IMG/VR virus record: IMGVR_UViG_3300013094_000098
Coordinates: 1-45,197 of that record
Direction: 5' to 3' (one strand)
From: a virus
Length of the DNA: 45,197 nucleotides
Below the pieces are notes generated by a model. That model worked only from the letters and a program-made list of their open reading frames with translations, was not told the DNA's origin and searched no databases. Positions 961 through 27,596 of the stretch are shown here, piece by piece; within the stretch, counting starts at the first letter, position 1; every line of letters begins with the position of its first letter. The position numbers were made by a program, and so were the translations under genes.

Positions 961-1578
961 TTACTCAGAATATTTTTTCATTGTACCGTCAGGATGCACA
1001 TGATATGCATGGAATCTGACATGAGGATATTCTTTTTTCAAACCCAGGAAAGCCTTGAGATTTTCATGGCTGTCGTCATACATTCTTACATGAGTATAAG
1101 GATGGGTATCTAAGTGATGACGAATAAATGTTAATTTCTTTTCAGCTGGCTTTTCATTACCAGGTATATTGCCAGCCCTATGCACATGAATCTTATCCAT
1201 GTGAAGTATGCCGTGTTGAGATAAGGTGTTTAAGAATTTATGCTTATTATCAAAGTCTGCACGAGCTGTATTAATAACAACCTTATTCTTAGGATTTCTT
1301 AAAGTAGTGGCTTGGGTAGCATTAATCGTTCTGATCATCTTTTTAATAGGATGAGAATGACTAAAAACCTTTGCACTTCTAAATTCATGGTAATCATAAT
1401 GATGACCTGGTGGTAGTTTGTGATGATTATATTCAGAAGTTGTTAATTTTTCAACTGTATGTCCATCTGCATTCTTGACATGAACTTTAGCATTGGAATG
1501 AACCAAAGTATCATCCACGTCAAAAACATGAAGGGTTGAACTAGCATTTTCTTGAAGATAACTTTTAAATGTAATCAT
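961..1578 (-). CDS. HAD-superfamily phosphatase with capsid-targeting-like N-terminus
   Basis: The 205-residue protein has HAD motif I DVDDT (residues 20-24), a motif II-like INTARAD and a motif IV-like YDDSHEN, so it should be a metal-dependent phosphatase; the substrate is unknown. I choose ATG 1578 because the upstream in-frame start is a TTG inside the preceding gene. The resulting N-terminus, MITFKSYLQE, resembles the T4 capsid-targeting peptide of internal proteins, which ends in the gp21 cleavage motif (I/L)xE. The protein may therefore be packaged in the head and injected; that is inference. Histidines are very abundant. No clear ribosome site is seen. Confidence 0.75.
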   Translation of the reverse strand: MITFKSYLQENASSTLHVFDVDDTLVHSNAKVHVKNADGHTVEKLTTSEYNHHKLPPGHHYDYHEFRSAKVFSHSHPIKKMIRTINATQATTLRNPKNKVVINTARADFDNKHKFLNTLSQHGILHMDKIHVHRAGNIPGNEKPAEKKLTFIRHHLDTHPYTHVRMYDDSHENLKAFLGLKKEYPHVRFHAYHVHPDGTMKKYSE

Positions 1579-1585
1579 ATAATAT

Positions 1586-1879
1586 TTATTGGCAAATCGT
1601 TTTATAAGCTTCAACTTGCTGATTATCTACAATCACATTACCAACAAATACCTTACGGCAAACAGGTTGATACTGCTGTTGATAACGAGGTTGTGACATT
1701 TCCATCAAAGCTCCACCAACAATCAAACCACCAAACAATGGTGCAACCCAATTACCACCACCATTACCGCGATATTCACGATGACCTTCATAACGGCGAT
1801 GCTGCCAATCATAATTATCAGCATGAGCCATTGAGGTCATGGCAATCGTGGCAGTCAAAGCTAAAATAATCTTACGCAT
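1586..1879 (-). CDS. small exported protein with Sec signal peptide
   Basis: The 97-residue product starts with a basic end and hydrophobic core followed by an AHA cleavage-like site near residue 20 (MRKIILALTATIAMTSMAHA). The mature part is rich in Tyr, Arg and Gly, contains a glycine-rich hydrophobic patch (APLFGGLIVGGALM) and two cysteines near the C-terminus that could form a disulfide. It is probably periplasmic or membrane-associated. GGAG lies seven bases before the ATG, inside the end of the ArfA-like gene, with which it overlaps by 8 bases. No family is recognised. Confidence 0.7.
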   Translation of the reverse strand: MRKIILALTATIAMTSMAHADNYDWQHRRYEGHREYRGNGGGNWVAPLFGGLIVGGALMEMSQPRYQQQYQPVCRKVFVGNVIVDNQQVEAYKTICQ

Positions 1880-2003
1880 TTACTTTCTCCAACTTCTTAC
1901 GGCTATATGAACCCCGACCTTTTTTAGATAGCACAATGCGCCGGTGATATTTACGATCAGCCAGCGCTTTTGCAGGTGCGGATTTATGAACTGTTTTCAT
2001 CAT
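1872..2003 (-). CDS. ArfA-like alternative ribosome-rescue factor (43 aa)
   Basis: A 43-codon frame begins with ATG ATG at 2003. Its centre reads D-x-x-Y-x-x-R-I followed by SKKGRGSYSRKK, closely matching the core of E. coli ArfA, where DPLFRQRV is followed by KKGKGSYMRK. ArfA recruits release factor 2 to ribosomes stalled on mRNAs without a stop codon. The ORF is short and basic, like the truncated active form of ArfA. A strong promoter at 2010-2038 puts the expected transcription start at or next to the ATG, so the mRNA is probably leaderless. Family call rests on the motif only; other small basic phage proteins share part of it. Confidence 0.65.
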   Translation of the reverse strand: MMKTVHKSAPAKALADRKYHRRIVLSKKGRGSYSRKKLEKVNA

Positions 2004-2009
2004 ATTATT

Positions 2010-2038
2010 AATATACGATATTTTAAAAAATAAAGCAA
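2010..2038 (-). promoter_or_regulatory. early sigma70-like promoter for the ArfA-like gene
   Basis: Minus strand TTGCTT (2033-2038), a 17 bp spacer containing TTTAAAATATCG, and TATATT (2010-2015). This is the same block as at 11450, 24284, 24770 and 25309. Only six bases separate the -10 element from the ATG. Confidence 0.75.
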
Positions 2039-2051
2039 CCCGGTTTTTTGA

Positions 2052-2447
2052 TTAAAATCTGTTCCCAATTGTGTATTTTGTTACCAAATTCCAGTTGTTT
2101 TTATCCTTAAACGGGATAATTTTGACCTGATTTAGAGGGGCTACGGGATCATCTGTCTTTTGAGGGTCAACTTGATTAATAAGATTCCATTCCTCTAATA
2201 GGATAACAATCCTATTTCTTCTAGAAATATCACCTTCAGAAAAATCAGCTTCTTTACCATCCAAAAGGAATAATTCTTTAAAATGAACTATATAATATTT
2301 ACCCTGCTTATGGAGAATATGGCAGGACTGATATAGCGTATTTTCTTTTTTAGATGCTAGACCAATACGGGAAAGTGTTTCTCTTACTTTTAAAAAATCT
2401 TCGGCATTATTAAGGGTCACTTCCACCAGTTGATTTAGATTGAACAT
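2052..2447 (-). CDS. regA: RegA translational repressor
   Basis: The 131-residue protein is a clear RegA homologue. It shares with T4 RegA the blocks EDFLKVRETLSRIG, LYQSCHILHKQGKYYIVHFK and the C-terminal KYTIGN. T4 RegA binds the ribosome sites of many early mRNAs, including those of genes 44 and 45, and stops their translation. I choose ATG 2447 rather than an in-frame GTG at 2456, because AAAGGTGG is correctly spaced before the ATG and includes the GTG. The start overlaps the end of gene 62 by 38 bases, as the last gene of the 45-44-62-regA operon. Confidence 0.95.
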   Translation of the reverse strand: MFNLNQLVEVTLNNAEDFLKVRETLSRIGLASKKENTLYQSCHILHKQGKYYIVHFKELFLLDGKEADFSEGDISRRNRIVILLEEWNLINQVDPQKTDDPVAPLNQVKIIPFKDKNNWNLVTKYTIGNRF

Positions 2448-6225: not shown

Positions 6226-6851
6226 AAATCAATTCCGTAATAAGGGTTTTCGACAGTATTAAAAATCCCATCTCTCATAATACCTTCTCCTGGATTAAAT
6301 GTCCAGATAATATTAGCAGGCAATGATTGTGAGTTTTCAAATTTAGTAGATGAGATATTGTGATCATCATCAATAAACAAAGGTGAAATAAGATTGCGAA
6401 ATAATTGCAATCCTTCCATCGGGCTATAGTAAACACAAGAGAATGTTCCATCAATATCATTCAAATGCCCATCATCGATATATTGACGAAGAATCAAATA
6501 TGTATCCCACGTATTATATCGATCATTTTCATATTGTTGTTTTCTCTCATTAATCCATTTAGTTTTAACAATACCATTATGCCACAAAAGTGTATTACCA
6601 ATCCATGCAGGATGGACAGAGTTAATGTCTTTGTTATCAGTGGTTGGTGCTTGCATATGCGCAATGCAATAATGACCTGGTGGGATGTTAATAGCATCTA
6701 AAGGAATTTCACCCAGTCCACGATTAACCTGAATCGTGTTATCTTCTGGATTATAATAAGAATATGAATAAGAATGTTGACCTCTATAAAGATTCAACTT
6801 TACGAGGTCAATGATCTTATCCTTATTGAAAGAACCAATGATACTGCACAT
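6222..6851 (-). CDS. class II glutamine amidotransferase (Gat domain of Gat-QueC), stand-alone
   Basis: The 209-residue protein begins MCSIIG, so Cys2 becomes the N-terminal nucleophile after Met removal. It also has YRGQHSYSY (22-30), IAHMQAPT and LWHNGIV (89-95), typical of class II amidotransferases. Such domains release ammonia from glutamine. In several phages a Gat domain is fused to QueC and makes 7-amido- or 7-amidino-deazaguanine (archaeosine base) from preQ0. Here it is a separate gene whose ATG overlaps the QueC stop by one base (TAATG), so the two are probably made in equal amounts. Substrate assignment is inference from context. Confidence 0.85.
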   Translation of the reverse strand: MCSIIGSFNKDKIIDLVKLNLYRGQHSYSYSYYNPEDNTIQVNRGLGEIPLDAINIPPGHYCIAHMQAPTTDNKDINSVHPAWIGNTLLWHNGIVKTKWINERKQQYENDRYNTWDTYLILRQYIDDGHLNDIDGTFSCVYYSPMEGLQLFRNLISPLFIDDDHNISSTKFENSQSLPANIIWTFNPGEGIMRDGIFNTVENPYYGIDL

Positions 6852-7597
6852 TAAATAAATCTATCCCACTCGACACCAACGACATAATCAATAGGATCAC
6901 GAACACCAGCTCTAATAAAATTCTGTAGACGCTCCGAACAGCTGGGGCAAACACCACATGACCTTCCAGCATCATCAGGATCATAACAAGTAAGAGTGTA
7001 TTCAAGTTTGACATTACCAAGTTCCTCTGCAATCTTAATTTCTTCCCACTTAGCTAACTGACTGAATGGTGCTTCAAGCTTAACCTTGTGGGTACGATTA
7101 AGACCAGCCACCGCATTCATATTATCAACAAACTTCTGTGATGTATCCCAATAACCATATTCATCATGAACTTGCAATCCAGTAAAGACATGGGAAGCCT
7201 TATTAGATTCTGCAAAGGAGAATGCTAAGGCATTCAAAATCATATTGCGAAATGGCACATATGTTTTAGGTTGTGGATCTCCAAGAACGTCTTTGATGGT
7301 TGGCATAGCCACGTCAGTACCGCCAATATTAGCGCTGACATCCTTTACAATATCACCAAGAATTCCGAGATCCAATACTTTATGAGCAATACCAAGATAT
7401 TCACATGTCTTAGCAGCCATCTCAAGTTCTTTTACTTGCTTCTGTCCATAGTTATAGGAAAGAGCAAAAACACGATCCTTACCATACTTCTCAACAAGGA
7501 TGTATGTCATAATAGATGAATCCATTCCACCTGATAGAACAGATACTACATTTTGATCAGTATCAGGCAATGCTGCCAATGCTTCACTTAGATTCAT
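6851..7597 (-). CDS. queC: 7-cyano-7-deazaguanine synthase QueC
   Basis: The 248-residue protein has the PP-loop LSGGMDSS (21-28) that binds ATP, followed by ALSYNYGQKQVKELE, and a C-terminal zinc site with CYDPDDAGRSCGVCPSC. These are diagnostic of QueC, which converts 7-carboxy-7-deazaguanine to preQ0. ATG 7597 is preferred to a GTG at 7600, since GGGAG lies six bases before it. The start overlaps the DUF3310 gene. Together with folE, queD, queE, gat and dpdA in the window it forms a full 7-deazaguanine DNA modification route. Confidence 0.96.
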   Translation of the reverse strand: MNLSEALAALPDTDQNVVSVLSGGMDSSIMTYILVEKYGKDRVFALSYNYGQKQVKELEMAAKTCEYLGIAHKVLDLGILGDIVKDVSANIGGTDVAMPTIKDVLGDPQPKTYVPFRNMILNALAFSFAESNKASHVFTGLQVHDEYGYWDTSQKFVDNMNAVAGLNRTHKVKLEAPFSQLAKWEEIKIAEELGNVKLEYTLTCYDPDDAGRSCGVCPSCSERLQNFIRAGVRDPIDYVVGVEWDRFI

Positions 7598-7832
7598 CAC
7601 GAACTCCCATCAATCTTTCAATTTCACGATCAACATACCATCTAGCTTTCTTGAGATCTTCAATCTCTTTAGTCAAAGCATCATAACCTTTTTCATCTTT
7701 GCGTCCTGCACGAAGAATATACTTCACAGCATTGCCTCGAGAGAAATTCAAATCAAAGATTTCAATAATATCAATAGCCTGAATACCAGTCTTATTTCCT
7801 TTATAATGATCTGGATTAATCTTATCAACCAT
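7584..7832 (-). CDS. DUF3310 protein
   Basis: This 82-residue protein shows NPDHYKG near the N-terminus, then AIDIIEIFDLNFSRGNAVKY and ILRAGRKDEKG, which is the pattern of DUF3310 (SaV-like) phage proteins, sometimes annotated as nucleotide kinase. It is predicted helical with a charged C-terminus (DLKKARWYVDREIERL). The biochemical role of the family is not established. It is embedded between dpdA and queC with overlaps on both sides, so it may assist in nucleotide or modification metabolism; that is context only. Confidence 0.85.
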   Translation of the reverse strand: MVDKINPDHYKGNKTGIQAIDIIEIFDLNFSRGNAVKYILRAGRKDEKGYDALTKEIEDLKKARWYVDREIERLMGVRDESK

Positions 7833-8649
7833 TCACAATCTCCTTAAACTTATTGACATTATAATATAACAAATCCATATCAATGTCACTAATATTCATA
7901 CCATAAACTTTATCAAATGATGCAATTGGTTTTTCATCCAATCCCATATCAGTATACTTGTTGCCGTCAATAGCTGCCATGATAGGGTTAGATGTATCAA
8001 TAGAACGAATCCAATTATAATCTCTATAATAATTAAATTCTTTAGCTTGCCAGGTACCAAGCAAATGATGTGGTCGATTATGATCTACTACGCGTTCATC
8101 ATTCAACCGCTTCAGGAGAAGATATCTCTCTCTGGCTTGAATATAAGGATCTCTCTCCACCCACGAATATACAAACGGAATACCAATCATATAAATGCTT
8201 TGATCAAAGTCCCCCACTCGTAGATCTCTGAAGTATTGATAACAGTCTAACATCTCATCAGGTGAATTACCTTGAATAACAGCCATACCATAATTAACTG
8301 TACCAGGATAAGAAGCTAAAAATTCATTAGTCTGAGAGATTGTTGCTTCTTTATTACCTAACGTATCAGGAAGAATGACAACTGAAGGTAGAATCTTTAA
8401 ACACCATTCATGAAGCAATTCATTGCTAAGAGATGCTCCTAACTCAAAGCAACTATTATCTAGATAAACTTGATGGGATGTACCATTCCAGGTCCAGGCA
8501 CCAACATTTATAATATCCTTAACTGCATTATAGTATTCAGGATCTTCTATGAGCTTATGTAAAAGCACATAGGTATAGTCATTGATCTTAAAATGATCGT
8601 CTGACTTCATAATAGATAGAGGGGTTTCGTGAGCAATCAGCTTTTTCAT
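7825..8649 (-). CDS. dpdA: DpdA-like DNA 7-deazaguanine transglycosylase
   Basis: The 274-residue protein has the pattern of phage DpdA, a TGT-related TIM-barrel enzyme: VYLDNSCFELG (Asp64), VILPDTLG (Asp95), YGMAVIQGNSPDEM, a GIPFVYSW strand, HHLLGTW and RSIDTSNPI. Members exchange guanine in DNA for a preQ0-derived base. No separate tRNA-type Tgt is visible in the window, and the zinc site of Tgt is absent, which argues for DNA as substrate. GGATG precedes ATG 8649. It is the first gene of a run that continues into DUF3310, queC and gat. Remote family, so the call rests on motifs plus context. Confidence 0.82.
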   Translation of the reverse strand: MKKLIAHETPLSIMKSDDHFKINDYTYVLLHKLIEDPEYYNAVKDIINVGAWTWNGTSHQVYLDNSCFELGASLSNELLHEWCLKILPSVVILPDTLGNKEATISQTNEFLASYPGTVNYGMAVIQGNSPDEMLDCYQYFRDLRVGDFDQSIYMIGIPFVYSWVERDPYIQARERYLLLKRLNDERVVDHNRPHHLLGTWQAKEFNYYRDYNWIRSIDTSNPIMAAIDGNKYTDMGLDEKPIASFDKVYGMNISDIDMDLLYYNVNKFKEIVNG

Positions 8650-8680
8650 TCACACATCCATAATATAACATCAATAATCA

Positions 8681-8709
8681 AATATAAAGTATAAAGGGAA
8701 TTAAATCAA
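8681..8709 (-). promoter_or_regulatory. possible sigma70-like promoter for the dpdA operon
   Basis: Minus strand TTGATT (8704-8709, overlapping the stop of the preceding gene), 17 bp, then TATATT (8681-8686). It lacks the AAAATACCG spacer block and the AATGGAGA leader of the other early promoters, so it is less certain. Confidence 0.4.
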
Positions 8710-8969
8710 CCTTTATATGTCTCACCCTTAGCGTGTGCTTTAGCTGCTTTTCTACGACCTTCAGCTGCTCGTCTATCAAACTCAGCTTTACCTAGTCTCT
8801 TACGACCAGCGGCAGCGGCAATTGCACCAGCAGCTTTATAACTAGTGTGTGCTGATTTAGCAATATTTTTAACAAAGACATCTTTACCACCAGATGTCTT
8901 TGGACCTTCTTTGATCATTTCTTTATTAGTAAATGAATCAACAAACTCTCTGAATGATTGTAATGCCAT
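8706..8969 (-). CDS. small Lys/Ala-rich basic protein
   Basis: This 87-residue product is strongly basic and alanine-rich in its second half (AAGAIAAAAGRKRLGKAEFD and repeated RRAA, RKAAKAHAKG), like small histone-like or internal head proteins. The N-terminus contains SFREFVDSF. I see no enzyme motif. It is the last of four closely spaced genes behind the late promoter at 10203-10210, one base after the preceding stop. A role in DNA binding within the head is plausible but unproven. Confidence 0.65.
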   Translation of the reverse strand: MALQSFREFVDSFTNKEMIKEGPKTSGGKDVFVKNIAKSAHTSYKAAGAIAAAAGRKRLGKAEFDRRAAEGRRKAAKAHAKGETYKG

Positions 8970-8970
8970 T

Positions 8971-9411
8971 TTATGCCTTTGTTTCTACAAATTCTTTAAA
9001 AGAGTGAATCTTTTTCAATCTTTCTTTTTGTGCGTAATTGTGAGTACCAGGTTTAGACTTCATTTTCCAGAAAGAAGCTCTTTCAGGTCTTGGTTTATTA
9101 GCGTCCGGATCTACCTTTTTTTTGCCAAACATCTGAGCAATTTTTTCAGGTGAATGCCAGTCTCCTACAATATCCCATTTCTTTCGGATATTATAATTAT
9201 ATGTATGAAATTCTTTACCGTCACTATTGCGTTTTAAATCAATCTTATATCTATTTATGCCGATTCTATGATTTTGAAGAACAGTATATGATGTGGGTGA
9301 CTCATGTTCAATTTTTTCATTACCATTATACACAAAAGAACCTTTAGGTGCTTTTAGTTTAATATCTTTAATTACTTGCCCGCCTGAACTAACTAAAGGA
9401 ACATAAACCAT
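8971..9411 (-). CDS. uncharacterised basic protein, late cluster
   Basis: The 146-residue protein has an N-terminal part rich in beta-type sequence and a Lys/Arg-rich C-terminal half (GKKKVDPDANKPRPERA). It ends HSFKEFVETKA, similar to the SFREFVDSF of the next gene's N-terminus. Its ATG overlaps the preceding stop by one base (TAATG), so translation is coupled. No family is recognised. Location in a late-promoter cluster suggests a virion or assembly role. Confidence 0.65.
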   Translation of the reverse strand: MVYVPLVSSGGQVIKDIKLKAPKGSFVYNGNEKIEHESPTSYTVLQNHRIGINRYKIDLKRNSDGKEFHTYNYNIRKKWDIVGDWHSPEKIAQMFGKKKVDPDANKPRPERASFWKMKSKPGTHNYAQKERLKKIHSFKEFVETKA

Positions 9412-9824
9412 TATTTCTTCCTCTTTTCAATTTCAGATGCTAACTTTGCAACATACTCAGTGTGTGCTTTAGGCACTGTCTTAATTTGAAATCCATACTT
9501 GCGATTCTTAAGATCCTTATGAACCTTTTCAAGATCGCTATCTGATACATGAGAAAGATCACCTGAATCATGATGCTCATGTGATGTATATTTGTCTTTG
9601 TTAGCAGCTAGATGATCTGCATGCTTATTAAATGTAGCACGAACATCACCCTTATATCCGAGACCAGTCATACGCATCCAATTAAGAACACGACCATGAT
9701 TCTCAGCTGTAGGATGTTTATTTAAAAATCCCATAACATGAGAAATCTTCTGATGAGGATCTTTCAACTCACGAGCTTGAACTCTAGTCAATTGCCAAGG
9801 CATACTAAATTTATTAACAGTCAT
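9411..9824 (-). CDS. conserved phage protein with PWQLTRVQAREL motif
   Basis: The 137-residue protein begins with MPWQLTRVQARELKDP and contains RVLNWMRMTGLGYKGD, a pattern I associate with a phage-specific family of unknown function. It is His- and Lys-rich and probably helical. A single-base TAATG overlap couples it to the gene before. It may be packaged together with its neighbours, but nothing in the sequence proves that. Confidence 0.7.
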   Translation of the reverse strand: MTVNKFSMPWQLTRVQARELKDPHQKISHVMGFLNKHPTAENHGRVLNWMRMTGLGYKGDVRATFNKHADHLAANKDKYTSHEHHDSGDLSHVSDSDLEKVHKDLKNRKYGFQIKTVPKAHTEYVAKLASEIEKRKK

Positions 9825-10183
9825 TAGATAGCTCCCGTCTTATATTTGTAATCTTCTTTATCATAAGGTTCACCTAGCATATTGCGCCAATGAATACGTA
9901 CATCCTTACGAAGCTTATCGGTAGAAGCCTGACCTTTTGTCTTACCGGTACGATGAACAGATCCTGTCAAGACATTAACAACACGACGAACAGCAATAGG
10001 ACTATCCTTATGCTTATTAAAATAAGCACGAAGAGTCTTTACATTCTGTTCATGATTGTGGATCCAATTACCAATAAGAGACTTACGAACACCCTGCCAT
10101 TCAGGATCATCAACTACTTTCTTGATGTCCATACCCTTAACCTTACGGGCGCCTTCCATGAGGTGCTGTGAGAATGTCAACAT
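9824..10183 (-). CDS. candidate internal head protein with capsid-targeting-like N-terminus
   Basis: The 119-residue basic protein starts MLTFSQHLMEGARKVKG. T4 internal proteins start MKTYQEFIAE and are cut by gp21 after the Glu; here HLME matches the (I/L)xE rule at the same position (residue 10). The rest (DPEWQGVRKSLIGNWIHNHE and a basic tail) is not a known enzyme. AGGAGAAG precedes the ATG and a perfect late promoter TATAAATA is 20 bases upstream. I infer a packaged internal protein that enters the host with the DNA. Confidence 0.65.
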   Translation of the reverse strand: MLTFSQHLMEGARKVKGMDIKKVVDDPEWQGVRKSLIGNWIHNHEQNVKTLRAYFNKHKDSPIAVRRVVNVLTGSVHRTGKTKGQASTDKLRKDVRIHWRNMLGEPYDKEDYKYKTGAI

Positions 10184-10202
10184 ATCTCTTCTCCTGTTAA
10201 TA

Positions 10203-10210
10203 TATTTATA
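10203..10210 (-). promoter_or_regulatory. late promoter TATAAATA
   Basis: Exact T4-type late promoter octamer on the minus strand, about 20 bases before the start of the 119-residue protein, with an AGGAGAAG ribosome site between. It would need gp55 (encoded at 19203-19811). Confidence 0.75.
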
Positions 10211-10227
10211 ATACAGGTTTTATGAAA

Positions 10228-10686
10228 TTATGGCCACAGGTATTTTTCAGGTATTTTGGAATTATCTATAAAATAATTCATATCAGGATACAAATTAGGC
10301 TTTTGAAGTAACCTTTCGGTAATTCTTTCAATAATAATGTCATAAGCCTCTTGATCTGGCTCCCAATCTTGATACCAAATCACTGGGAACTCTCTTTTAA
10401 ACCTGGATAAATGCTGACCAAAAAGTTCATCGTTTATCTTAATGTTTCGTCTTTTACATTCAATATTTAAAGCAATGTATCTCTTTTCAAGATAATAGGC
10501 TTTATCATAAAAGAATTTAACATGCCCACCATTCAAACAAAATTTCTCCGGAATCTTTACGGATTCCAGATTACCCTTGATAGCGGTTCTTGTCATAGGA
10601 TAAATGATCTGAGTTAATTCTTTATACTCAGCAACAAGATGTCTTGTTGTTAATATTTCTGGATTGACCAGATTAATTCTTGTCAT
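10228..10686 (-). CDS. denV: pyrimidine dimer DNA glycosylase, endonuclease V
   Basis: The N-terminus MTRINLVNPEIL with LVAEYKEL is nearly that of T4 endonuclease V (MTRINLTLVS, LMAEYREL). Thr2, which becomes the N-terminal nucleophile, Arg3 and the catalytic Glu23 are all present. GGHVKFFYDKAYYLEKRYIAL matches the region GAGHVTFFYDKLEFLRKR. The enzyme removes UV-induced pyrimidine dimers and nicks the abasic site. At 152 residues it is slightly longer than T4's 138. It follows the nuclease-like gene with no gap. Confidence 0.95.
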   Translation of the reverse strand: MTRINLVNPEILTTRHLVAEYKELTQIIYPMTRTAIKGNLESVKIPEKFCLNGGHVKFFYDKAYYLEKRYIALNIECKRRNIKINDELFGQHLSRFKREFPVIWYQDWEPDQEAYDIIIERITERLLQKPNLYPDMNYFIDNSKIPEKYLWP

Positions 10687-11208
10687 TTACCATCCTGAAA
10701 TATTGTGTTGTACAAAATCTGGAAAATCCTGAAGACGAAGACGTTTACCATACTTATCTTGAATAAGACGTTTACTATTCAGCATGAACTCTTCCATCTT
10801 TTCTTTTTCATAAATCACGAAAAGATCACCCTTAGGACCTACATGCATAATGTGGGTGTTTGTCTTTTCACCATTAAAGAATTCTGGTCTAATAGTGATA
10901 TACCAATATTTGTTTTCACGATCCCAATACAATGATGATCTACCACTCTTAGCATCAACTGTAATATGATCTTTACGGGAATTAAAGCATGTGAAGTCAA
11001 TGCCAAATAATTGTGCCCAAACATCCTTAGAATGATTTATGATTGTGCCATAATTAAAATTTTCAATAAGAAGCTTTAAAGCATTAGCTTCACCTCTAGC
11101 ACCTTCTGTACCAGACTGACCATGCTTATCTTCAATATCAACTTTGAATGCGGGCCAAATTCTATCTCTCAATTCTTGATTGTATGGAACATCAATTACT
11201 TTTGTCAT
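10687..11208 (-). CDS. possible PD-(D/E)XK nuclease-like protein
   Basis: The 173-residue protein has GARGEANALKLLIENF, then QLFGIDFTCFN and ITVDAKSGRSS. The order Glu - Asp - Asp-x-Lys with this spacing resembles the active site of PD-(D/E)XK nucleases (restriction endonuclease fold). It is not a family I can name. It could process branched or foreign DNA, or be a non-catalytic relative. It sits between denV and a small gene, all behind the early promoter at 11450-11478; its stop TAA is directly followed by the denV ATG. Confidence 0.6.
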   Translation of the reverse strand: MTKVIDVPYNQELRDRIWPAFKVDIEDKHGQSGTEGARGEANALKLLIENFNYGTIINHSKDVWAQLFGIDFTCFNSRKDHITVDAKSGRSSLYWDRENKYWYITIRPEFFNGEKTNTHIMHVGPKGDLFVIYEKEKMEEFMLNSKRLIQDKYGKRLRLQDFPDFVQHNISGW

Positions 11209-11209
11209 C

Positions 11210-11425
11210 TTACTTTACCTTCATGCCTTCACCAGAAAATGAATAATTGGTAGCAAATTTATCCAATTGAGCCATACCCAAAGATTCAATCTTATAGAGA
11301 GACAATTTCTTCGTCTCTGCTTTTGCATGAGAATTGGTAATTAAGTCTTTCATAGCAGCACGTTTAGAATTAATATCTTTAGCTGCCCAGACTGCTTTTA
11401 CATATTGATCTAAATTTAAAGCCAT
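11210..11425 (-). CDS. small uncharacterised early protein
   Basis: A 71-residue lysine-rich, helical protein (MALNLDQYVKAVWAAKD at the start). ATG 11425 is chosen over an ATG twelve bases upstream because GGAGAG, the ribosome site, lies between the two. It is the first gene after the early promoter at 11450-11478 and is followed, one base after its stop, by the nuclease-like gene. Function not recognised. Confidence 0.7.
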   Translation of the reverse strand: MALNLDQYVKAVWAAKDINSKRAAMKDLITNSHAKAETKKLSLYKIESLGMAQLDKFATNYSFSGEGMKVK

Positions 11426-11449
11426 TTTTCTCTCCATTTCCTATTATTA

Positions 11450-11478
11450 ATTATAGGATATTTTGAAAAAAATGGCAA
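11450..11478 (-). promoter_or_regulatory. early sigma70-like promoter
   Basis: Minus strand TTGCCA (11473-11478), 17 bp with TTCAAAATATCC, then TATAAT (11450-11455), a near-consensus sigma70 promoter. The leader AATGGAGAG follows. It should drive the small gene, the nuclease-like gene and denV. Confidence 0.8.
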
Positions 11479-11504
11479 CAATTAAATTTATTCAATGATT
11501 TCAA

Positions 11505-12251
11505 TTAGTTACAGGTGAACTTCTGTAACTTAATATTATCAAAGAATTCTTGTTTAGCAGATTGCGTATAGAATAGACCATGAAGAACAGTGGTCTGTGT
11601 TGTACTATTAGAGGCCATAATTCCTCTGTTCTCGCAACAACCATGTTTAGCTTCAATGTATACTGCTACGTTCTCAGATTTAGTAGCATCCATTATTGCT
11701 TTGGCGATGTCACCGCAAAGCTCTTCCTGAAGAGTGCCACGTCTCGCACAATGTTGTGCAATCCTAATATACTTACTAAGCCCGATAACATGAGTAGAAG
11801 GGATGACCCCAATGTAAGCGGTACCTGTAACAGGTTGATGGTGATGAGAGCACATAGACTTAAGTTCAACACGGACAACAAGCATACCATGATAAGGCTC
11901 CGTGCCATGCGATCCGTCATTAGGGAATGAAGTTGAAGTGGGTTCATCATGATACCTCCCATACATAATTTCATTGATATACATTTTAGCTAGACGACGA
12001 GCAGTACCCTTAGAATTAGGATCATTGTCAACATCAATTAGCAATGAACGAAGAACACCTTGAAATTGTGATTCTACCTCATCAATGAGTAGAGCCCTTG
12101 TCTCATCATCCAAATATTCACTAATGTTATCATTAGCAAAATACCGATGATTGGCATTTTCCAACTTTGCTTTAATTTTTTCTGATATTGAACGCTGACT
12201 ATCATATGCATCATGTTCTCTAATTGCTATAAAATCTTCTCTCTTACTCAT
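11505..12251 (-). CDS. folE: GTP cyclohydrolase I
   Basis: The 248-residue protein carries the GTP cyclohydrolase I core: MCSHHHQP (Cys134, His137 for zinc), AYIGVIPSTHVIGLSKY, RRGTLQEEL, and EAKHGCCENRGI with the second zinc Cys. The enzyme converts GTP to dihydroneopterin triphosphate, the first step of folate and of deazaguanine synthesis. Next to queD and queE its role here is to feed preQ0. It is the last gene of the coupled run that starts at gene 55 and overlaps queD by 4 bases. Confidence 0.95.
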   Translation of the reverse strand: MSKREDFIAIREHDAYDSQRSISEKIKAKLENANHRYFANDNISEYLDDETRALLIDEVESQFQGVLRSLLIDVDNDPNSKGTARRLAKMYINEIMYGRYHDEPTSTSFPNDGSHGTEPYHGMLVVRVELKSMCSHHHQPVTGTAYIGVIPSTHVIGLSKYIRIAQHCARRGTLQEELCGDIAKAIMDATKSENVAVYIEAKHGCCENRGIMASNSTTQTTVLHGLFYTQSAKQEFFDNIKLQKFTCN

Positions 12252-12745
12252 ACAAACAAATCCTCATTCCATTCACGATGGCCTTCACGGAAGGCCATAT
12301 TTGCTATTGTCTCACGTACTTCAACTCGATAGCACCAAAGGCTCTCTGCTTCACCTTGACCCCACATATCAGGAATATAGACTCCGTTGACATACTTGTA
12401 CAACATATCTGCAAGGCCCTCACAACCAAGTTTTGGTAGAATAGTTAGCTTAGCTAATTTCTTCTCCTGAAGCAACAGATATGTTTCCATCTCTGGATCA
12501 TCCTGTGCTACAAGCAAAGTATGATCAAACTGATCCTCTAGAACCTTCTTGAGCTCTTTCAAACCACCATAATCTGCTGCCCAATTGCGAGCATCTAGAT
12601 CATTAGTACCAAAATGGAACTTCATGGAGAATGAGTATCCATGAATTAGATTGCAATGACTATCAGCTTTCCACTGGCGATATGCTACAGGGAAGGCATT
12701 GTGGTATTCCTTGGTAGAAGTATACTTATAAGCTACGGGCTGCAT
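12248..12745 (-). CDS. queD: QueD-like 6-carboxytetrahydropterin synthase with altered zinc site
   Basis: The 165-residue protein follows the QueD/PTPS pattern with Cys31 in HCNLIHGYSF, FDHTLL and VEVRET. Canonical QueD binds zinc by three His in AAH and HGH; here these read VAY and HGY, so only His35 is kept and Tyr22 and Tyr37 replace the others. I have seen this form in phage-type QueD, so it is likely a subfamily, not decay. It should convert dihydroneopterin triphosphate to 6-carboxytetrahydropterin. It is coupled to both neighbours. Confidence 0.88.
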   Translation of the reverse strand: MQPVAYKYTSTKEYHNAFPVAYRQWKADSHCNLIHGYSFSMKFHFGTNDLDARNWAADYGGLKELKKVLEDQFDHTLLVAQDDPEMETYLLLQEKKLAKLTILPKLGCEGLADMLYKYVNGVYIPDMWGQGEAESLWCYRVEVRETIANMAFREGHREWNEDLFV

Positions 12746-12999
12746 TATTGCTCCTCAAAATCTTGAAATTTAACACGCTGAATGTGATTCTTCTCACAAT
12801 ATGTTTCAATACGACGATCGATATATTCATCTAGATATTCTTTAAATTTATCTTTAGCAGCAGGTATCAATGAATTACGAATCTCGTCACCCTGCCGCCA
12901 TCTACCTTCTTTGTTAGCAAACCACTCATCATCTAGAGTATCAACTAATTTCTCTAATGCACCAACAAAATCATCAATAATATCAGAACTTTTTCTCAT
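12745..12999 (-). CDS. small acidic helical protein inside the queuosine-type operon
   Basis: The 84-residue frame starts at ATG 12999, which overlaps the queE stop as TGATG and is preceded by GGGGGA; a longer frame to 13056 exists but has no better start. The product is helical and charged (IIDDFVGALEKLVDTLDDEW near its start) with no known motif. It is set between queE and queD, with a 1-base overlap to queD. It could be a partner of either enzyme, or an unrelated passenger. Confidence 0.65.
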   Translation of the reverse strand: MRKSSDIIDDFVGALEKLVDTLDDEWFANKEGRWRQGDEIRNSLIPAAKDKFKEYLDEYIDRRIETYCEKNHIQRVKFQDFEEQ

Positions 13000-13865
13000 C
13001 ACGTCCCCCATTGATTTTTCCAGAGCTGCACTTGTAGACGAGGAGTATAACGCCAACCATGCTTAATGCAGAGATCCGCAACCCACTTCTCATTATCATT
13101 ATAAACTAAAGTAGTGCCACCAGCAGGCATTAGATAAATTGGAATCTGATCCATAACAGGACCAAGTATAGCACTATATGCATCAATAGCTTTTAATACA
13201 TCTTCGTAGTCTTCTTGATTAGATACAACCCACTTGAAATATACAAGAGAGGAATGATTAAAATAATCTTTAATGATTTCTGGTTTAATAGCTTCTTCAA
13301 ACTTCTCGCCAGACGAAGGTAACTTAGATGATACACTATAGGTGATATCAAGCCATGGGAAATAATCATTGGATACAAACCAATCTTTAAGACCTGGTTT
13401 TAATTCTTGAGTACCATTGGTTTCAAAAGTAATATGGGTTAGATTCATATCACGCTTACCAATTTCCTCAAAGAGTTCTGTATATGATTTCTGCCATCCA
13501 AGAAGAGGTTCACCGCCAGTAAGGATCAAATGCTTATCTGGTCCAAACTTGCCACCAGGAAGCATCTCCTGCATCTTGTCTACAATCTCTGTAATTTCCA
13601 TTAATGGCGAAAGGTGTTTAAAACGAGGATCCCAAGAAGCGTAAGAATCGCAACCAGTATGGACAAGAGGTAGAGAGTTATAGTCGGTATACTCTTTCGG
13701 ATCGATATCGAGGCGCTCAACAGAAAGACTTCCGCGAGGCATACCAAACCCAGGACACTGGAAGTTACAACCGAAAACTCGAAGAAATACTGAAGGAGTA
13801 CCAAGATATTGCCCTTCCCCTTGTAGTGAATAAAATAGTTCTGCGACCTTAATCTTTGACATCAT
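12999..13865 (-). CDS. queE: QueE-like radical SAM enzyme, unusual cluster motif
   Basis: The 288-residue protein starts with KVAELFYSLQGEGQYLGTPS, the QueE signature, followed by FGCNFQCPGFGMPRG. The usual CX3CX2C cluster motif is incomplete: Cys33 and Cys37 are present but position 40 is Phe. Cys72 in TGCDSYASWD may supply the third ligand, as QueE proteins are known to vary here. LTGGEPLL and a later FETNGT match QueE. It converts 6-carboxytetrahydropterin to carboxydeazaguanine. Start is ATG ATG at 13865, overlapping the gene upstream. Confidence 0.92.
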   Translation of the reverse strand: MMSKIKVAELFYSLQGEGQYLGTPSVFLRVFGCNFQCPGFGMPRGSLSVERLDIDPKEYTDYNSLPLVHTGCDSYASWDPRFKHLSPLMEITEIVDKMQEMLPGGKFGPDKHLILTGGEPLLGWQKSYTELFEEIGKRDMNLTHITFETNGTQELKPGLKDWFVSNDYFPWLDITYSVSSKLPSSGEKFEEAIKPEIIKDYFNHSSLVYFKWVVSNQEDYEDVLKAIDAYSAILGPVMDQIPIYLMPAGGTTLVYNDNEKWVADLCIKHGWRYTPRLQVQLWKNQWGT

Positions 13866-14103
13866 GCATTCCTTGTTCTACAGCAGCCTCGAGCATAGCA
13901 TTGATTTGTAGCCCAATCTGCTCTTCTAATTCAGGTGTTATCTCATTAGCACCCACTTTTGTAGTCTTATTATCACTGTCTATTTTAAAAATGTCAACAG
14001 CTACAAACATATTACCATCTTTATCTTCTGTGACAAAATCACCAGGTGGAAAAGTACAAAAATAATTACCTACTCTAAAACCTTCTTTAATATTATTTGA
14101 CAT
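13849..14103 (-). CDS. small conserved protein, unknown function
   Basis: This 84-residue acidic protein (GNYFCTFPPGDFVTEDKDGN near the N-terminus) has a beta-rich first half and a helical C-terminal half (ELEEQIGLQINAMLEAA). It overlaps pdf by 11 bases at its start and queE by 17 bases at its end. I recognise no domain. Its place suggests co-expression with deazaguanine and peptide deformylase genes only. Confidence 0.65.
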   Translation of the reverse strand: MSNNIKEGFRVGNYFCTFPPGDFVTEDKDGNMFVAVDIFKIDSDNKTTKVGANEITPELEEQIGLQINAMLEAAVEQGMHDVKD

Positions 14104-14584
14104 TGTAATAACCTTTCATAGCTTTTTCTCTGTGATATCTGTTAGCTCTATTAATAAAAAGTACACCATTAAGATGGTCAAGTTCATGTTGGATAATTCT
14201 GGCTGTTAATCCATTAAAGGTTCTTGTGTCAACACCTCCAGATGGTGTTTGAAATCTAAGACGAATTTCTTTAGGTCTTTTAATTTTTACGTTGACACCA
14301 GGAAAAGATAAACAAGCCTCATCCATCAATTCAGTCTCTGCTGATTCATTAACAATCTTAGGATTAAAAAATACAAAATTTTCAGGATAACCCTTAATAG
14401 CTATTACTGAATATGGTATGCCAATTTGGTTGGCTGCTAAACCAACACCATCATTATCATTCATTACTTGCATTAGCTGTAGAGCTAAATCACCAGGATT
14501 TGTTGGTGGCTTCATAAAATTAAATGGTTGTGTGGGGGTTGTAAGAAGAGAGTCGGGATATTTCACAATGCTATTCATAATCAT
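14093..14584 (-). CDS. peptide deformylase
   Basis: The 163-residue protein has all three deformylase motifs: GVGLAANQIG (46-55), EACLSFPG (89-96) and HELDH (133-137), which supply the metal ligands Cys91, His133, His137 and the catalytic Glu134. Motif II has Ala where EGCLS is usual. Phage deformylases are short forms, and this is in their size range; they act on nascent phage or photosystem-like proteins to remove the formyl group. It overlaps the glycosyltransferase by 4 bases. Confidence 0.95.
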   Translation of the reverse strand: MIMNSIVKYPDSLLTTPTQPFNFMKPPTNPGDLALQLMQVMNDNDGVGLAANQIGIPYSVIAIKGYPENFVFFNPKIVNESAETELMDEACLSFPGVNVKIKRPKEIRLRFQTPSGGVDTRTFNGLTARIIQHELDHLNGVLFINRANRYHREKAMKGYYNVK

Positions 14585-24005: not shown

Positions 24006-24257
24006 TTAAACTCCTAAAGTGTGACGACCATTATAAGCATCAGCTTGCAATGCTATAATTTTATCTTCATAAGATTCATATACTCCACCAAGCTCATTGT
24101 ACATTGCAGCATCGAGAGCATCCGAGAGGTTGCGATATTCGCTTGCGAGCTTGCGAATCTCATAGCGAAGATCGTCAGCGTCATATTCGTATTTACGCGA
24201 GCGACGAACGAGAGATTCAAGGCGTTCAGCAATATCTACTGCTTCATTGACATTCAT
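24006..24257 (-). CDS. helical early protein, unknown function
   Basis: The 83-residue protein is charged and helical, likely a coiled coil (AVDIAERLESLVRRSRKYEY and ALDAAMYNELGG). It is the first gene after the early promoter at 24284-24312, with leader GGAGAAGTGAAATG, so it is expressed early with the tiny membrane proteins downstream. No domain recognised. Confidence 0.65.
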   Translation of the reverse strand: MNVNEAVDIAERLESLVRRSRKYEYDADDLRYEIRKLASEYRNLSDALDAAMYNELGGVYESYEDKIIALQADAYNGRHTLGV

Positions 24258-24283
24258 TTCACTTCTCCATCTCTTATATTATC

Positions 24284-24312
24284 AATATATGGTATTTTGA
24301 AAATAAAAGCAA
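24284..24312 (-). promoter_or_regulatory. early sigma70-like promoter
   Basis: Minus strand TTGCTT (24307-24312), 17 bp containing TTCAAAATACCA, then TATATT (24284-24289), leader AGAGATGGAGA. Confidence 0.8.
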
Positions 24313-24597: not shown

Positions 24598-24624
24598 TTG
24601 CATCTCTCCATTGCTCATATTATT

Positions 24625-24653
24625 AATATAGCTCACATTAAAAATAATTGCCA
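24625..24653 (-). promoter_or_regulatory. early sigma70-like promoter (weak -35)
   Basis: Minus strand TGGCAA (24648-24653), 17 bp, TATATT (24625-24630), leader AATGGAGAG. Confidence 0.65.
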
Positions 24654-24683: not shown

Positions 24684-24781
24684 TAACCCATTGAAATCAT
24701 TAGCTTTTTTATTAATTTCAAGAAAGTGATAACCTATTGAAATCATTACCTTTTTTATTTTGCTATCATTTGCTTTTTTTA
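24684..24781 (+). repeat. direct repeat in divergent control region
   Basis: The 30-base unit TAACC-ATTGAAATCATTA-CTTTTTTATT occurs at 24684-24713 and 24730-24759 (28 of 30 bases equal), and a shorter third copy, ATCATTTGCTTTTTTTAT, at 24765-24782 includes the -35 element of the plus-strand promoter. The repeats lie between the divergent promoters at 24625-24653 and 24770-24798. They could bind a regulator or be duplicated promoter remnants. Confidence 0.7.
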
Positions 24782-24798
24782 TGAAAATACTGTATATT
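24770..24798 (+). promoter_or_regulatory. early sigma70-like promoter, plus strand
   Basis: TTGCTT (24770-24775), 17 bp with ATGAAAATACTG, TATATT (24793-24798), then leader GAGATGGAGAGAGTG before the metalloprotease-like gene. Confidence 0.8.
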
Positions 24799-24823
24799 AA
24801 TATAATAAGAGATGGAGAGAGTG

Positions 24824-25312
24824 ATGCAGTTAATTCAAAAAGGTTCGGTCTATACCACTAAGCAGGCCTTCTTTCAGGATAAAGAGTATCGCAATAAGAC
24901 CCGTGAGTATGTGGATCTAGCTAATAAGATCCTACCTTATATTAAATCTAAGCTTCAGTTTGGGGTTGATGTTAAAATCATTATTGGCTTCACCAAAGCT
25001 GCAAATAATTATGGATCGTATACACACACTTTAAGGGAAGTCAAGGTTGAGGTGCGTCAAAGCAAGATGCGTTTCATTGATTCTTTGGTTCATGAATTGG
25101 TTCACGCTCAGCAGGATTTCTTAGGTCAGCTACGTCCTAAATTTGATTGTAATGATGGTTACATTTTCTACTGGAATGATGTAAATTTTGGTAAACACCC
25201 TACCTCACATGCTAAGTACTTGGCTCTGCCATGGGAAGTTGAGGCTCGTAAGGTTGCAGCAGAAATGACCAAAGAGGTTATGGCTATGTTGAAAGAAGAG
25301 GAAATCGGTTGA
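24824..25312 (+). CDS. SprT-like zinc metalloprotease-like protein
   Basis: The 162-residue protein from ATG 24824 (GGAGAG spaced before it) has HELVH (90-94), a zinc metallopeptidase motif, and PWEVEA near residue 136, which can supply a third metal ligand. This is the pattern of small SprT-like / M48-like phage proteins; substrates are unknown. It is the first plus-strand gene, behind the early promoter at 24770-24798. Confidence 0.72.
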   Translation: MQLIQKGSVYTTKQAFFQDKEYRNKTREYVDLANKILPYIKSKLQFGVDVKIIIGFTKAANNYGSYTHTLREVKVEVRQSKMRFIDSLVHELVHAQQDFLGQLRPKFDCNDGYIFYWNDVNFGKHPTSHAKYLALPWEVEARKVAAEMTKEVMAMLKEEEIG

Positions 25313-26216: not shown

Positions 26217-26406
26217 TGATGAATTTAAAGTATTATATCGGTTTACTAAAACTATGAGAAATAGTAAAATGATAGAACACCCCGATGATAATGTTGAAAT
26301 TATTTTTGACGGGACAGAAACAAATATACATGTAGTGTTGAGTCAATTTGAAACATTCCTGAAAGCATCAGGATACATTTTTGATCATTTGGAGGTAGTA
26401 CGATGA
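26209..26406 (+). CDS. uncharacterised 65-aa protein
   Basis: Small acidic protein (MTDDEFKVLYRFTKTMRNSK at the start) without known domain. It overlaps the gene upstream by 8 bases and its stop overlaps the SPFH gene start (ATGA), so all three are probably translated together. GGAGG precedes its neighbour's start rather than its own. Confidence 0.55.
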   Translation: MTDDEFKVLYRFTKTMRNSKMIEHPDDNVEIIFDGTETNIHVVLSQFETFLKASGYIFDHLEVVR

Positions 26407-27596
26407 TTAGTAATATTATTAAGTCCCTTGTAGCTATGATGGTCTACTTGGTTTTGATTAGCCTTATTAATCCCTTTGCGACATTGATTACAGGCGCTGT
26501 AGCAGGCGGGCAATTTGATAACAGTTCTATGTCATATCTAAGTGCAACGTTTGTTTTTACATTGTTTAATACATTGTATTTTGTTGCTACGTTTGGATTC
26601 TTGATGTCTCTATTTGCAATTTGGATGAAAACATTAAAAGAATTTATTGCAGCATCTACTGTATTGTTGTTGCTAGTAATGATTGCTCATCCTCAACAGG
26701 CTTTTGCATATGCTGATACTGTTGATAAGACAGAAGCATATACTATTCTTCCTAATGAATCAGCATTTTGGATTCCTGATGTTGGAGCAAACAAGGATAC
26801 TCAAGCCAAGTTTGACTCAGAATCATACTTGAGTGATAATAAGGTAGCAGCAAAGCGCTTTATTGTACCACATGCAAAGCTTGGCAACTCTGGTGGTTTC
26901 CTTGGTTGGGACTTTTATGTTCCTACTGGTCGTTTGATTATTGTTGACCGTACACCCTATTCACGTGAATGGGTAAAAGCATCTAATCGTGGTACATCAT
27001 CTGGTGATCAATCATTCCCTTGTCAGTCTAAGGAAGGTTTAAACATTACTGCTGGTGTTTCAATTGGTGCATCAGTATCAGAAGAAAATGCTGCAAAGTT
27101 TCTATATCGTTTTGGTGTTGTTACACCACAAGGTGATCGTAAAGATCCTCAGGTAATCTTTGCTTCTGTATATACTGGTCGTTCATTAGCCAGTGTTATG
27201 GATGATGTTGGTCGTAAGAAGATTCAAACGCTCGTTTGTGCAGAAATTGGCAAGCGTACTTTTGATCAGGCCAATGAAGAAATGATCTCTATTATGGATT
27301 CAGTTCAGAAGACGACCAAAGAGTATTTTGCATCTGTAGGTATTACTCTAGACTTTATTGGATGGGCAGATACGTTTGAGTTTGATGCACCCGTGCAAAA
27401 GGCTGTAAACGATCGTTATATTGCTACTAAGTTGGCTTCTGCACTTCCAGTACTACAAGCAGTTGCAGGTCTTAAAGTCCAAGAAGGTCTTGGTTCTGGA
27501 TTGGATAAGCATGGCTTGCCTATCGTAGTCACTCCTCAGATGATTGATGCGTTGATTGGATTGGCACCTAAAGTCATTGTTCCGGAGGCAAAATAA
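26403..27596 (+). CDS. membrane-anchored SPFH/band-7-like protein
   Basis: The 397-residue protein has hydrophobic helices at about residues 8-30, 46-74 and 81-96, then a domain from about 175 to 345 with GRLIIVDRTPYSREW, SKEGLNITAGVSIGASVSEE and DFIGWADTFEFDAPVQKAV, matching SPFH/band-7 folds (stomatin, prohibitin). Such proteins form oligomeric rings on membranes and guard proteases. In a phage it may alter the host membrane. GGAGG precedes ATG 26403; a TAATG overlap couples it to the next gene. Confidence 0.75.
   Translation: MISNIIKSLVAMMVYLVLISLINPFATLITGAVAGGQFDNSSMSYLSATFVFTLFNTLYFVATFGFLMSLFAIWMKTLKEFIAASTVLLLLVMIAHPQQAFAYADTVDKTEAYTILPNESAFWIPDVGANKDTQAKFDSESYLSDNKVAAKRFIVPHAKLGNSGGFLGWDFYVPTGRLIIVDRTPYSREWVKASNRGTSSGDQSFPCQSKEGLNITAGVSIGASVSEENAAKFLYRFGVVTPQGDRKDPQVIFASVYTGRSLASVMDDVGRKKIQTLVCAEIGKRTFDQANEEMISIMDSVQKTTKEYFASVGITLDFIGWADTFEFDAPVQKAVNDRYIATKLASALPVLQAVAGLKVQEGLGSGLDKHGLPIVVTPQMIDALIGLAPKVIVPEAK

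Follow-up and report, generated by a model that had tools for sequence, protein, structure and literature searches.

A conserved, apparently leaderless arfA-like gene downstream of regA in a group of T4-type phages

The arfA-like gene, its family and its neighbours

The window analysed here, by which we mean the whole stretch of DNA at its full length, is a 45,197-base virus fragment from IMG/VR that carries T4-type genes, among them clamp loader genes, regA and gp23. Within it we found a short open reading frame (ORF) related to the rescue factor ArfA, located downstream of regA on the minus strand. The features of this locus, together with two promoters elsewhere in the window that serve for comparison, are as follows.

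2052..2447, minus strand: regA translational repressor, upstream neighbour of arfA (PF01818, E=2.1e-45), with an ATG led by a Shine-Dalgarno sequence (SD; protein start MFNLNQ)
2033..2038, minus strand: TTGCTT, the -35 element for arfA; its TTG is identical across 14 distinct upstream regions
2010..2015, minus strand: -10 element TATATT, with the spacer of 17 bases and the gap of 6 bases kept in 21 distinct versions
1872..2003, minus strand: arfA-like ORF, 43 codons and 43 amino acids (PF03889, E=9.9e-5; dN/dS about 0.16; no SD)
1586..1879, minus strand: ORF of 97 amino acids whose N-terminus resembles a signal peptide and which has a glycine-rich segment; nearly all relatives with enough flank have a counterpart of it after arfA
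961..1578, minus strand: HAD-type phosphatase, like PHROG 415 (polynucleotide kinase), E=1.4e-10, with its start at an internal ATG (MITFKSYL)
24770..24826, plus strand: comparison promoter TTGCTT-N17-TATATT, leader with an SD (AAGAGATGGAGAGAGTG), then ATG
24255..24312, minus strand: comparison promoter TTGCTT-N17-TATATT, leader with an SD (AAGAGATGGAGAAGTGAA), then ATG

The translation of the arfA-like ORF (MMKTVHKSAPAKALADRKYHRRIVLSKKGRGSYSRKKLEKVNA; minus strand, 2003..1872) contains the core KKGRGSYSRK with a D-x-x-Y-x-x-R block before it, and its Y19 and R22 align with F25 and R28 of E. coli ArfA. The original prediction had given the position, length and motif of this ORF correctly, omitting the strand, and had proposed a profile search with the ArfA family. 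In that search the window protein scored 22.2 bits against PF03889, below the curated cut-off of 25.5 bits, and aligned to profile positions 19-41 only, leaving the N-terminal part of the profile uncovered. Its top PDB sequence matches are E. coli ArfA chains, which are weak alone (E about 0.09), and searches of PHROGs and NCBIfam returned no family for the ORF. At the level of the family, PF03889 was matched at E<=0.01 by all 18 members, each scanned singly (best 5.6e-8), and a comparison of the phage family with the cellular ArfA alignment by hhalign gave a probability of 97.2% (E=4.4e-11, 37 columns). Furthermore, some more distant phage relatives exceed the curated score (L117, L122 and L082, with 25.6, 30.0 and 29.9 bits, respectively). 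The proposed homology to ArfA is supported by the Pfam matches and by the profile comparison, although the window protein itself scores under the cut-off.

An exact 23-base search with the -10/ATG region returned 12 viral contigs, and an alignment-based search of IMG/VR returned 37 loci encoding relatives of the ORF. The window clade comprises 26 sequences including the window, which reduce to 21 distinct versions when upstream region and ORF are taken together; these version counts refer to sequences, many of them closely related, and not to independent events. For the ORF core, dN/dS was calculated from 18 distinct sequences, and of 28 codons, 24 vary at the third position and 7 at the second. 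Judged by these substitutions, the arfA-like ORF is under purifying selection. Length differences near the ORF start among the relatives are whole codons only, which argues that coding begins at the ATG. A stem was predicted inside the window ORF at codons 13-22 (z -2.2); because it is absent from the relatives, control of phage arfA by a coding-region hairpin was rejected.

A gap of 48 bases separates regA from arfA. On the other side, the start of the 97-aa ORF overlaps the arfA stop (ATGCGTAA), an overlap absent from the original prediction, and the SD of this ORF (GGAG) lies inside arfA; a small extra stretch separates arfA from the secreted-type gene in L001, L084, L108, L111 and L112. 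Where both genes are in view in the clade loci, arfA is always downstream of regA, either next to it or with one or two genes in between, and the promoter travels with arfA where the surrounding gene order changes. The HAD gene sits between regA and arfA in some relatives and beyond arfA in L097-L100, and it was rejected as part of a conserved unit because its position shifts in this way. As read from these gene orders, the conserved unit is the promoter, arfA and the secreted-type protein gene.

Promoter spacing, predicted transcript start and timing

The arfA start is preceded, in order, by TTGCTT, a 17-base spacer, TATATT and AATAAT, and the gap between the -10 element and the ATG is exactly six bases, as had been noticed in the original prediction. 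The pattern TTG-N20-TATATT-N6-ATG occurs once in the window, whereas shuffled sequences lead to an expectation of 0.03. All 21 distinct versions have the form TTGxxx-N17-(-10 hexamer)-N6-ATG without an SD, down to 60% protein identity, the -10 hexamer being TATATT in most versions and TATTAT or TAATAT in two. Across the 14 distinct upstream regions, column conservation averages 0.94 for the -10 element and 0.73 for the spacer, and the TTG is invariant. The claim that no ribosome site precedes the ATG therefore holds, since we found no SD upstream of it in the window or in any of the 21 distinct clade versions.

Transcription usually starts seven bases after the -10 element. As the -10 element of arfA ends six bases before the ATG, a start at the usual distance would fall on the A of the first ATG, and the usual scatter of starts would make the leader no longer than about three bases or move the start to the second ATG. 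As a prediction from sequence, we consider a leaderless arfA mRNA, beginning with the A of the first ATG or close to it, to be well supported by this conserved spacing.

The promoter TTGCTT-N17-TATATT is present in three copies in the window, against 0.01 expected, and arfA has one of the three. At both comparison genes the leader contains AAGAGATGGAGA and an SD-placed start, whereas arfA has no leader; an identical promoter thus serves two SD-led genes in the same window, making arfA the exception. In the relatives, the promoter, including the ATGATGAAAAC stretch, also precedes other small genes with an SD-led start 18-30 bases on. Among genes with this promoter, arfA is the one that has a 5'-terminal AUG only, apart from one further SD-less case in L117. 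The original claim of a leaderless message is accordingly kept as a prediction from sequence, favoured by the promoter-to-ATG spacing kept in 21 versions and by the SD-led twins of the promoter in the window. SDs are present in the more distant phage relatives L116, L117 and L118-L124, which indicates that leaderlessness is not required for phage ArfA generally.

The same promoter type also puts an AUG six bases past the -10 element before other small genes (L001, L085-L090, L093, L101 and L113; window 24616-24630, minus strand). In a count made by eye on related copies, this upstream AUG is in frame with the downstream SD-led start in about 10 of 14 distinct genes, where one third is expected (P about 0.004). 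This arrangement is reminiscent of the E. coli class of upstream AUGs located at the 5' terminus (PMC4965119).

The strongest competing explanation is that a functional ArfA is made mostly from a leadered transcript reading through from regA, either by SD-independent initiation at AU-rich sequence or by re-initiation after regA, with the nearby promoter playing a minor part. We found no terminator between regA and arfA, so such a read-through transcript may be made, and the end of regA lies close by; furthermore, the window -35 element is TTGCTT, which agrees with the consensus TTGACA at 3 of 6 bases. However, TTGCTT also serves as the -35 element of the two SD-led window genes, and the promoter with its exact spacing is kept in all 21 versions, including those in which other genes lie between regA and arfA. 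We regard a read-through origin as unlikely, and favour a message that would begin at the arfA promoter.

The original prediction suggested that this gene could act late in infection. A T4-type late promoter (TATAAATA-like) was sought upstream of arfA and was not found, and an ATAAATA-type late motif precedes 7 of the 16 genes in the late/structural set of the window. With a sigma-70-like promoter that has a conserved -35 element and with no late motif, early expression of arfA is more likely than late expression, and the proposed late timing is not retained.

Proposed function and comparison with known systems

We think it probable that the phage encodes an ArfA and that the early mRNA for it has no leader or almost none. 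In the scheme that we infer, host sigma-70 RNA polymerase would begin early transcription on the first AUG or no more than about three bases from it, and ribosomes would bind this 5'-terminal AUG directly. Where ribosomes have stalled on broken messages, the short protein, which is probably disordered off the ribosome, would enter their empty mRNA channel and, as its family suggests, recruit host RF2, by which the stalled ribosomes would be freed. The benefit to the phage would be that ribosomes stay available during the destruction of host mRNA or the action of defence nucleases.

Another reading is that the protein derives from ArfA and serves a purpose other than rescue; it might, for instance, bind the ribosome or RF2 to inhibit host termination or shut off host translation. 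Phage proteins often redirect host machinery, and the unmatched N-terminal part of the profile and the score under the cut-off would fit such a change; however, the KKGxGSYxRK tail and the D-x-x-Y/F-x-x-R block are retained, and the short N-terminus of the phage form is similar to that of some short cellular ArfA proteins. A different role is, in our judgement, distinctly improbable. Finally, a functionless chance arrangement of ORF and promoter spacing, as the small size of the ORF and its AT-rich upstream region might suggest, can be set aside as extremely improbable given the dN/dS value, the 37 loci with relatives and the rarity of the pattern expected in the window.

Returning to a phage-encoded rescue factor, we compared it with E. 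coli ArfA. The two share the tail that occupies the empty mRNA channel (KKGKGSYxRK in E. coli) and the block before it, D-x-x-F-x-x-R-V in E. coli and D-x-x-Y-x-x-R-I in the phage. Unlike E. coli ArfA, the phage form has neither the C-terminal hydrophobic extension nor the conserved hairpin, it ends at an ordinary stop codon seven residues past the RK, and its transcript is predicted to be leaderless. E. coli arfA is under tmRNA control via a non-stop, hairpin-truncated mRNA and a hydrophobic tail (PMC8012679). The ordinary stop and the lack of a hydrophobic tail and of a conserved hairpin argue that tmRNA control of the E. coli type is absent from phage arfA.

In E. coli, 5'-terminal AUGs support translation (PMC9031893, PMC4965119), and leaderless messages bind 70S ribosomes and depend less on initiation factors (PMC9031893), a property that would suit a factor called for once normal initiation fails. 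Accordingly, we hypothesize that leaderless translation may be a regulatory benefit for phage arfA. A bolder extension, which we hold to be possible but doubtful, is that leaderless initiation acts as a demand sensor: as ribosomes jam on broken mRNA, 30S initiation would falter while 70S ribosomes would still start on the 5'-terminal arfA AUG, and the rescue factor would rise at the time of need. If true, such demand sensing would stand in for the control that tmRNA exerts on arfA in E. coli.

The arrangement resembles the leaderless lambda cI mRNA and the E. coli 5'-terminal-AUG mRNAs (PMC4965119, PMC9031893), in which the start codon is at or near the 5' end and an SD is unneeded; it differs in that the product is a rescue factor and that the arrangement is deduced from the DNA letters. 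As predicted here, phage arfA would be a natural example of leaderless translation linked to a factor repairing translation itself, and one that E. coli reporters can test. The novelty lies in an arfA that is conserved and apparently leaderless, is located downstream of regA and overlaps the gene for a secreted-type protein; within the literature searched, which was covered in part, we found no report of a leaderless arfA.

The virus group and ArfA in other genomes

The phage group is presumably freshwater, to judge from the probable sampling sites of some of the IMG accessions. The closest cultured capsid proteins belong to a Stenotrophomonas phage and a Methylophilales phage, both lacking an ArfA match. 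We found no such match in Melnitz, DLP6, HTVC008M or S-CRM01, the cultured phages related through capsid or RegA. With this locus, a T4-like group so far seen only in metagenomes joins the phages carrying ArfA.

Phage ArfA has already been reported for pelagiphage HTVC027P (gp30, PMC12753301) and Citromicrobium phage RXM (g10, PMC8953757), and rescue factors are already annotated in Brevundimonas phages. The HTVC027P, RXM and Brevundimonas phage proteins are also short, ArfA-like and phage-encoded; they differ from the window protein in belonging to other phage groups with alphaproteobacterial hosts, and identity to it is low. A tblastn search of cultured phages with the window protein alone returned nothing, and the cultured-phage arfA copies were found with queries from its relatives. 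TATATT-N6-ATG is absent from those copies that were inspected. Most of the cultured phages matched by ArfA queries infect alphaproteobacteria. Caulobacter phage Cr30 carries an unannotated ArfA-like ORF (L175:1950-2102) downstream of GMP reductase, and two genes before the end of an RNA ligase gene.

The closest cellular sequences found are ArfA-like ORFs on SAR11 chromosomes, with about 50-68% identity over about 26-36 residues. In the SAR11 copies inspected, the ORF lies directly after or overlaps the preceding gene and, unlike arfA of the phage, has no promoter of the same kind. SAR11 genomes (L128-L170) carry such ORFs, and 3 of the 4 tested exceed the Pfam cut-off. This contrasts with a 2024 survey of 2376 alphaproteobacterial genomes, which reported arfA in none of them (PMC11633108). 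Among 289 genomes that we sampled from this class, 8 gave an ArfA match.

Further observations concern single loci. In the 202-kb phage L082, a distant ArfA-like ORF (1489-1602, minus strand) ends in a hairpin resembling an intrinsic terminator (AAGAGGGGATAATACCCCTCTTTTTTT), with the stop codon at the loop. The window itself contains a translation-related gene besides arfA, a phage peptide deformylase (14093-14584, minus strand; PF01327, E=7e-40), and, at 26403-27596 (plus strand), a protein with a weak SPFH/Band 7 match under the Pfam cut-off. At 6851-13865 on the minus strand lie genes encoding QueC, GTP cyclohydrolase I, a QueD-like 6-pyruvoyl tetrahydropterin synthase and a radical SAM protein (QueE-like); this set suggests 7-deazaguanine synthesis, perhaps for DNA modification.
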